Source of the DNA: Sipunculus nudus
Taxonomy: Eukaryota; Annelida; Sipuncula; Golfingiida; Sipunculidae
DNA: 64,000 bases
NCBI GenBank assembly: GCA_026874595.1
Contig: CM049309.1
Span: 17,872,576-17,936,575, forward strand
Reading direction: 5' to 3'
Shown here: one piece after another, positions 54,901-57,900 of the stretch
How positions within the stretch are numbered: position 1 is the stretch's first letter
Layout of the letters: each line of letters opens with the position of its first letter
Program-made: the position numbers and the translations under genes
The notes under the pieces: model-generated
The model's input: only the letters and a program-made list of their open reading frames with translations
Told to the model about the DNA's origin: nothing
The model's database searches: none

Positions 54901-57900
54901 TACAAAAATATATTTAAGGTGTTAACTAAGACAGCAACCATGGTTAAAATCCAAGAACAGTTTTCACATCTATATCTTTTATAATTTACCACTTTTTTTA
55001 CCATATTTTTCATTGACCTAAACACTCATCACTGTTGGAGGTATTTTGTGCTCTACTCAGGGACCTCTAGTTATTTAAAGCTTACACAAAGGACCTTCAA
55101 TTTTATTTAATATTATTAAGCTCTTTTCTAGTTGCATTCTATCAATGTAAAATGAACAAGCAAACACATTTAATTCAAGTTTAACCAACAGATGGCACTG
55201 ATAATTAATCCTTGCAATTTACCATAAATATGCAATGAAAACCTAGATTACTTTGGTCATACTCACTAGGATCAAACTCAGGCTTCTCTGCCTCTAACAC
55301 CTGAGTGAATTTAGATTTTTTCCTCTTCTTCTTTTTCCTACCATCAAGTCCATGAGACTGATCTTGTGTAGGATCATAATCAGCATCCATCTGGTGGCAA
55401 TAAAAGTAAATAAAACATCCATGTAACAAAAATTAAGGTTAACTGACAAATACTATCAACGAATAGTGACAAAACCTCTTCAAGGACCATGAAACAACTG
55501 ATTTGCAGAATATATGCAATTTAGTCATCAGTTTCCTTATTTAAAAATAAGCTGTAAAATAGATTCAAAATCCTTGATGGAATTAAGCTAATGTTCAGTA
55601 TCTTGACACTTCATCCTTACACAAACATCATAAACAAGATGTTCTTACACAGAAATCCTCATACAAAAGATGTTCTTACACAGAGTTCCTCATACACCAG
55701 ATGTGCTAACACAGAAGTCCTCAAGTAAAGTGCACTTACAAAGAAGTCCTCATATAAAATGTATTTACACAGAAGTCCTCACAAACAAGATATACTTGCA
55801 CAAAGTCCTCAAACACAAGATGTACTTACACAGAGTTCCTTATACACCAGGTGTACTTACACAGTAGTCCTCATACAAAATGTACTTACACAGAAGTCCT
55901 CATGTAAGTGTACTTACACAGAGGTCATTATACAAATGTACTTGCACAGAAGTCCTCCCACACAAGATATACTTACACAAAGCCTTTAAACACAAGATGT
56001 ACTTACACAGAATTCATCACACAATGTACACAGAATTCCTCACCAAAATGTACTTACACAGCAGTCCTCACACAAAATGTACTTCAACAGAAGTCCTCAA
56101 ACAATGTACTTACACAGAAGTGATCATATAAAATATACTTATAGAGAAGTCCTAACACACAAGATGTACTTATACAGGAGTCCTCACACACAATATGTAC
56201 TTAAACAGAATTCCTCCCACAAGATATACAGAATTCCTCCTCCAAGTGTTCTTACACATCATTCCTAAAACAATGTACTTACACAGAAGTCCTCACACAT
56301 ATGTATTTAAACAGAATTACTCACACACAAGATGTACTTTCACAGAATTCCTCACACAAAATGTACTTACACAGAAGTCTGGATCCTCACAGTGAGGGCC
56401 ATCTCCCTGCCAGTCTCCTTCCCAGTCCCCATTCTCTGCTTCCTCCTCAACTTCATCCTGTCCCTGACCATCCCAATTGTCCCAATTCTCAGCTGTAACA
56501 ACACCAACCAAAATCAAATTTGGCATAAACAGTTATAACAAGAGCACCGCAAACATGCATTATGCGCCCGTCTTATGTCTTGTAACCTCTGATCTCATTC
56601 AATATGTGTGAATTAAACACAGCTAAGAAACTATTGGTAAATATTTATGATGAGTTTCATGAATATCCATCAGTCATCATGGCACCACCTAAGTCTGGTG
56701 ACCTCTGACCTCATTAAATATGCATGGGTTTTACCTGGTAAACTATTGATAAGTAGTTATGGTAAGTTTTGTAAAAACCATCAAAGTTCTGTTAAGTTAT
56801 CGGGACAACAATAAAAGTTAACTGACAGACAGACAGAAGGACTGTGGGTGTACCATAACATGTCCCATCATAGAAGGATATATAAAGAAAGTCATGGGAC
56901 CTCAGTGACCTACCCTAATTTCCACCTTGGGGTTTACTTTACTGCTGTTAGGTGTAGGCTTTTTATTTGTTTCAAAAGACAGGCCAATGTGGCAATCCTG
57001 GACATCCAACAGTCATTACATGGAGAGACCTGGTGACAACTCCGGGTACCATCAAGGGGGAAGAGGGCAGCAAAGAAAACTAATTAAGACCATATTTGGC
57101 CTAAAATATTCTAAGTGCAAGTAATAAATAAAGAAGGAAAGAGTTGAATAAGGTTAAAAAATCATATCACAATAACAAAATATCTGGTTTCAAAGTAGCT
57201 ATCTTATGCATTTTTCACTTATGCCATGCTATGCCATGGCCCTACCAAAAGGATGATCTCTACACTCAGGTATACTTAAAAAATATAACAAACCCTTGAG
57301 ACCAAGCTCCTCCTCGTCATCAAACACAGGTTTTTGATCGTCTTCGTCCATGTCGTAATACTGCTGATCAAACACTTTCTGCATCATGCTGTCATACTGA
57401 GACGGATCAAAGTCCCCCTCCAGGTCCTTGTCGCTGAACCCAACATCCGGATTCCCCGTTATCTCCTTCAGCATCTCCAGACGCTCTGTTATTTCCTTCT
57501 TTTTAAGGTTTTTCAATCTTTTCAGTTCTTCTCTTTTACGTTCTTTTTCCTGCAGAAATCCAGATGATTAGGACAAGGAAACATGTCAAAATCTTAGAGG
57601 AAAGAACCATAACCTGCATTTGACAGCTAACACTATACGTAACAGGTAAACAAAAGCACTGTAAATGGTGCATAAGAGAAACCCTATTGCTAAATAATCA
57701 TTATGAATTTCATGGAAATCCATCAGGTTTTTGGTTAGTTACCCATGACAACCCCATCAATGTCTGGTGATCTCTAACCTCATTAAATATTCATGGATTT
57801 TGCCAGAAATTGAACTAGTGTGAGATTTTGTATTGCTTAATATTTCTGTTGAGTTTCATCAAAATAAATTTTTGTAGGTTATCACAGCAATGTCACAAAG

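Follow-up and report, generated by a model that had tools for sequence, protein, structure and literature searches.

The window analysed here is a stretch of 64,000 nucleotides of the Sipunculus nudus genome, and positions refer to it unless a locus label or contig is given. Its minus strand carries a gene that was identified as KRI1, the hand-joined exons matching the Pfam models Kri1 (5.1e-25) and Kri1_C (1.7e-15). One exon of this gene (minus strand, 56371–56492), ending in ...HCEDPDFC, is followed by an intron of 980 nt (minus strand, 56370–55391) that opens with GTAAGTACAT at 56370 and ends in CCACCAG before the next exon (MDADYDP...). The 5′ splice site GTAAGT (minus strand, 56365–56370) was assigned from the reading frame, and the junction DFC / MDADYDP fits the KRI1 gene; the residues at the junction are covered by neither Pfam model. 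Comparison with proteins of solved structure gave no relative of KRI1 at 0.001 and one chance match at 5. It was also observed that a 288-bp satellite of 7.4 copies (51441–53564) lies between the KRI1 exon that ends at 54362 and an exon starting at 50257 that, judged by eye, probably also belongs to KRI1.

About 740 nt of the intron is occupied by a tandem array. Tandem Repeats Finder (TRF) placed it at 55632–56379 (period 31, 25.9 copies, 70% matches), with a second call at 55628–56216 (20.1 copies, 74%), and cyclic alignment to the consensus GAGGACTTCTGTGTAAGTACATCTTGTGTAT resolved it on the minus strand into 26 units of 23–31 bp each, running from 56382 down to 55629, of which one overlaps the exon end and 25 are intronic. 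These counts agree with the minisatellite of about 25 units, built from a KRI1 splice donor, that had been described in the initial annotation, and the array has the head-to-tail units of about 10–100 bp that define a minisatellite. The exonic part of unit 1 is GACTTCTGT (56379–56371), the final 9 nt of coding sequence, so that the exon end and 5′ splice site, previously located at 56362–56380, had been placed correctly, give or take one or two bases. The array does not include the acceptor, which precedes 55390. In addition, the GTGAGGA of the repeat unit recurs in the KRI1 exon a few nucleotides upstream of GACTTCTGT, and judging from the exon and unit sequences the array may have been seeded by a junction segment of about 35 bp, from which 6 bp were subsequently lost. 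Searching the genome (1.43 Gb, 153 contigs) with the array DNA returned a single match, the array itself, which is strong but not absolute evidence of uniqueness, as very common words were skipped by the search. A satellite elsewhere in the genome as the source of the donor-like core, an origin that was looked for specifically, was thus not found by this search, and the reading of the array as a dispersed satellite resembling a donor by chance was rejected because the unit matches only its own locus.

Exact GTAAGT was present in 11 units, namely that of the assigned donor and 10 of the 25 intronic copies (minus strand, 55734–56282; first bases at 56282, 56113, 56057, 56006, 55976, 55917, 55889, 55860, 55829 and 55739), in accordance with the earlier count of at least ten; another 13 occurrences were located on the minus strand of the window outside the array units. 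Pairing with an assumed U1 5′-end sequence amounted to −6.5 to −7.3 kcal/mol for the ten decoys versus −6.8 kcal/mol for the assigned donor. Since the values are about equal, splice-site strength offers no explanation for decoys being ignored. The 18th codon after the junction is an in-frame stop located upstream of all ten decoys; therefore, of the two outcomes that had been predicted for decoy use, a premature stop applies to every GTAAGT decoy, whereas a stop-free insertion of extra residues applies to none. Mean identity to the consensus over the 25 units was 0.87 in the six donor columns, 0.82 in the other columns and 0.82 for GT alone, the donor columns being barely above the rest, and thus there was no sequence sign of selection for or against the decoys: the motif has been neither purged nor specially kept. 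The age gradient from the exon outwards that had been anticipated was absent (unit order versus divergence, Spearman −0.31, p 0.13). Identity between units was 0.766 at lag 6 and 0.71–0.75 at the remaining lags (to 12); this slight peak hints at growth in multi-unit steps, with no significance attached to the difference.

Two further donors in the window, both in a neighbouring plus-strand SKP2 gene (human SKP2 chain 1fqv_A, E 7.8e-60, together with F-box and LRR matches), are followed by copies of their own junctions. The first array (plus strand, 34343–34611) consists of four near-identical copies of about 67 bp, each made up of 44 bp of exon end, LSLEHCEINDQVCR, and about 24 bp of intron, with donors at 34387 (the real one), 34453, 34520 (GTATGT) and 34588. 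At the next exon, diverged copies of TGTAATAATCTGCAGAG/GTGAGATTTAA (plus strand, 35865–36264; TRF period 32) follow the real donor at 35882 and extend to 36264, so that this gene holds one young four-copy array and one old, diverged array. The exon ends copied in both arrays align to human SKP2 without gaps, and hence the exon is the source of the array. The head-to-tail spread of a splice donor put forward in the initial annotation gains support from the exon end and donor carried by the KRI1 array, from its single genomic match and from these SKP2 arrays, which run from exon into intron; that the KRI1 array took the same direction is suggested by analogy with SKP2 and by the residues before the junction, which are presumably similar in human KRI1. 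Other repeats in the window included a 337-bp satellite of 5.9 copies (28921–30923) upstream of the SKP2 F-box exon, and a 31-bp array of 10 copies (4753–5061) near an ankyrin-repeat exon, an array whose consensus lacked every donor hexamer searched for.

In a uniform test, 3 of 15 donors in the window had downstream junction copies (three positions were one base off and were tolerated). By local alignment, copies were detected in the window at 3 of 10 donors and at none of 10 acceptors; however, 10% of 150 random window positions scored at least 46 in the same alignment, as the large satellites of the window give random positions high scores, and hence the local-alignment test by itself shows no excess of copies.

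As an independent set, exons matching the dynein domain PF08393 were collected (84 matches), 60 exon ends were chosen and 221 bp around each was read, the donors being placed with a weight table, by which some were likely misplaced. Five of the 60 donors had a copy of their own junction downstream at a score of at least 12. Two of these were very strong cases, in which the duplicated stretch of exon falls within the dynein-domain match: a dynein heavy chain gene on contig C11 (locus L071), with about five 37-bp units at the exon QKSLTG, and another on contig C1 (L044), with a 92-bp unit. L047 and L086 carried old, diverged junction copies, and the fifth (L084, a dynein gene on the minus strand of contig C3 near 59.29 Mb) was a whole-exon duplication with the near copy preceded by AG, an arrangement suggestive of a tandemly duplicated exon with the potential for alternative splicing. 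In a shuffle test, 7 of 60 donors reached p ≤0.01 where 0.6 were expected; the extra two, L055 and L087, were weak, scoring only 9, and were left out of the five. Duplications at L072 and L080 were read as purely intronic, and those at L030 as intronic repeats, and none of the three was counted. No junction copy was found at 20 dynein acceptors, for which the upstream reach was shorter than the reach for donors; with the reach matched to that of the acceptors, 5 of 60 donors had p ≤0.01 (L044, L047, L071 and the weak L066 and L087). One more case came from a sample of 20 random stretches of 10 kb each, in which a 58-bp doubling spans an apparent exon end and GTAAGT donor (L013, 7731–7848; contig C2, about 30.0 Mb); the exon had no Pfam match and appeared transmembrane-like by eye only. 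Donor junction copies therefore recur in genes other than KRI1. Separately, a 41-bp unit repeated 7.3 times, with ACAGTAAGTTG in most copies, was noticed at L002 (1598–1889), no coding frame being recognised before its first unit, and long open frames at L026 (6300–9999) resembled by eye a retroelement polyprotein and are a candidate for one.

We consider it probable that the KRI1 array arose by tandem duplication across the donor, that the upstream donor was kept in use while the copies became intron, and that the array then grew neutrally. The first step would have been a short tandem duplication across the junction, which took in the donor together with a handful of bases from the exon and about 20 from the intron. 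With the original upstream donor still in use, the protein would be unchanged and all downstream copies would be intronic; unequal exchange or slippage, in multi-unit steps, would most likely account for the subsequent growth, and the units would drift with the donor motif free of selection. Splicing from the decoys is probably rare: the donor next to the exon is transcribed first and would be taken, and a transcript spliced at a decoy would carry a premature stop. The two SKP2 donors and several dynein donors would then be independent repeats of the process. From the sequences at hand, we infer first-donor use, neutrality and this mode of growth for KRI1.

The opposite order of events, in which the array is older and the exon end and donor of KRI1 were recruited from its first unit, seems quite improbable to us: it would agree with an exon end lying outside the Pfam models and with the failure to find a KRI1 relative among solved structures, but the exon continues the Kri1 reading frame and the SKP2 arrays went in the reverse direction. 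Even less credible is a functional array, whether as a series of U1-binding sites protecting the intron from premature cleavage and polyadenylation or as a device tuning KRI1 output through premature-stop isoforms. In favour of a function are the ten GTAAGT copies that remain intact, all of which would lead to a premature stop; yet conservation of the donor columns barely exceeds that of the others, the intron contains neither AATAAA nor ATTAAA, and arrays of widely differing age and size occur in unrelated genes. More serious, though still doubtful in our view, is the proposal that donors act as mutational hot spots at which tandem duplications begin more often than elsewhere, with transcription-linked breaks or R-loops close to the start of the intron as a conceivable cause, and that introns grow from their donor ends. 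Tandem duplication is frequent throughout the genome: about 5% of randomly chosen positions lie within a tandem copy (5.2% of 3000; in a repeat estimate, 4.8% of 6000 positions from random stretches and 6.9% of 3000 from the neighbourhood). This, together with the recurrence of donor copies in SKP2 and dynein genes, leaves without support the view in the initial annotation that the KRI1 array is not an ordinary intronic satellite. Measured against the pooled in-array background of 5.1%, the dynein count of 5 in 60 shows no excess (p 0.19). However, a donor can sit only in the first unit of an array, and the first-unit background was therefore used as an alternative. Random positions fell in a first unit at 1.6% (random stretches) to 2.8% (neighbourhood), 1.9% pooled, against which the 5 of 60 gave p 0.006 and, with the whole-exon case L084 removed, 4 of 59 gave p 0.027 (0.011–0.059 over five score cuts). 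When the dynein set was joined with 14 window donors, KRI1 being left out, 7 of 74 had copies (p 0.0001–0.007 for assumed backgrounds of 1.5–3%).

The absence of copies at the 20 dynein and 10 window acceptors and their presence at 3 of 15 window donors also speak for a hot spot; compared directly, 8 of 70 donors and 0 of 30 acceptors gave a Fisher p of 0.051 with the starting KRI1 case counted in. Array starts look about 3–5 times as frequent at dynein donors as at random positions, a weakly supported figure that exceeds what plain neutrality predicts and that depends on score thresholds set after the data were seen. Other surveys did not point the same way. An ab-initio exon set (28 stretches of 10 kb, 84 candidate exons, many of them uncertain) yielded 16 donors and 18 acceptors above the site-score cut, none with a copy, and the scan missed L013, which was present in the stretches but outside the 16 donors. 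Donor-like sites preceded by coding-like sequence had a downstream copy in 0 of 70 cases versus 3 of 263 for the others, in a coding-score scan that put no known case in the coding-like class and is not relied on; a single 44-bp satellite in L016 accounts for all the acceptor-side matches at coding-like sites. Tandemly copied GTAAGT sites formed 5 clusters, including a plus-strand cluster within the KRI1 array, compared with 1 and 3 clusters for other donor hexamers and 1 to 5 for eight control hexamers, an enrichment so slight that it was set aside as too weak to use. Taken to its full extent, with donors as preferred duplication starts, several percent of introns beginning with copies of their own junction, decoys accumulating freely and acceptors being spared, the hot-spot idea is no more than tentative. 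For the preferred reading, neutral growth after duplication across the donor, no such bias would be needed: a duplication across an acceptor or inside an exon would change the message more often than one across a donor, and since donor duplications would be mostly harmless, survival alone could make donors the visible class, the sample of acceptors being small. Duplication of the donor junction thus looks like a mostly harmless route of intron growth in this genome.

If the first donor is used despite ten equal copies, the KRI1 array offers a natural experiment in how splice sites are chosen, and if donors are preferred starts of duplication, such arrays would provide a natural test of how the spliceosome picks the first among many equal donors. 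Should the recurrence at donors be genome-wide, it would offer a simple route for intron lengthening and an origin of decoy donors, from which alternative or nested introns could arise later.

The KRI1 array is similar to intronic minisatellites (VNTRs) in its unit of about 30 bp, its approximately 26 diverged copies and its weak higher-order structure, but differs from them in that its first unit holds coding bases and a working splice donor, as assigned from the frame. In the open-licence literature searched, as far as the accessible portions of the papers extend, we found no account that treats arrays seeded by donors as a recurring category; three further papers (PMC3045353, PMC12783039, PMC3549977), judged from the portions available, did not fit as parallels, and junction-seeded arrays are not described in the available portions of PMC3443670 or PMC7138796. 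The [D] stwintrons of Lipomyces, according to the part of PMC7138796 at hand, resemble the present cases in that the donor of an existing intron is duplicated; they involve duplications of 4–7 nt and nested introns with internal acceptors, whereas the units here are about 30 to 90 bp, often form arrays and are known from DNA alone. In AGGT intron gain by tandem genomic duplication, as given in the available part of PMC3443670, a purely exonic AGGT segment is doubled to produce a new intron, and the likeness to KRI1 is that duplication creates extra splice sites within a gene. This model was rejected for KRI1 because the array leaves out the acceptor and its unit includes intron sequence; in contrast to the AGGT case, it is an existing junction that is copied at KRI1, and an old intron that lengthens.
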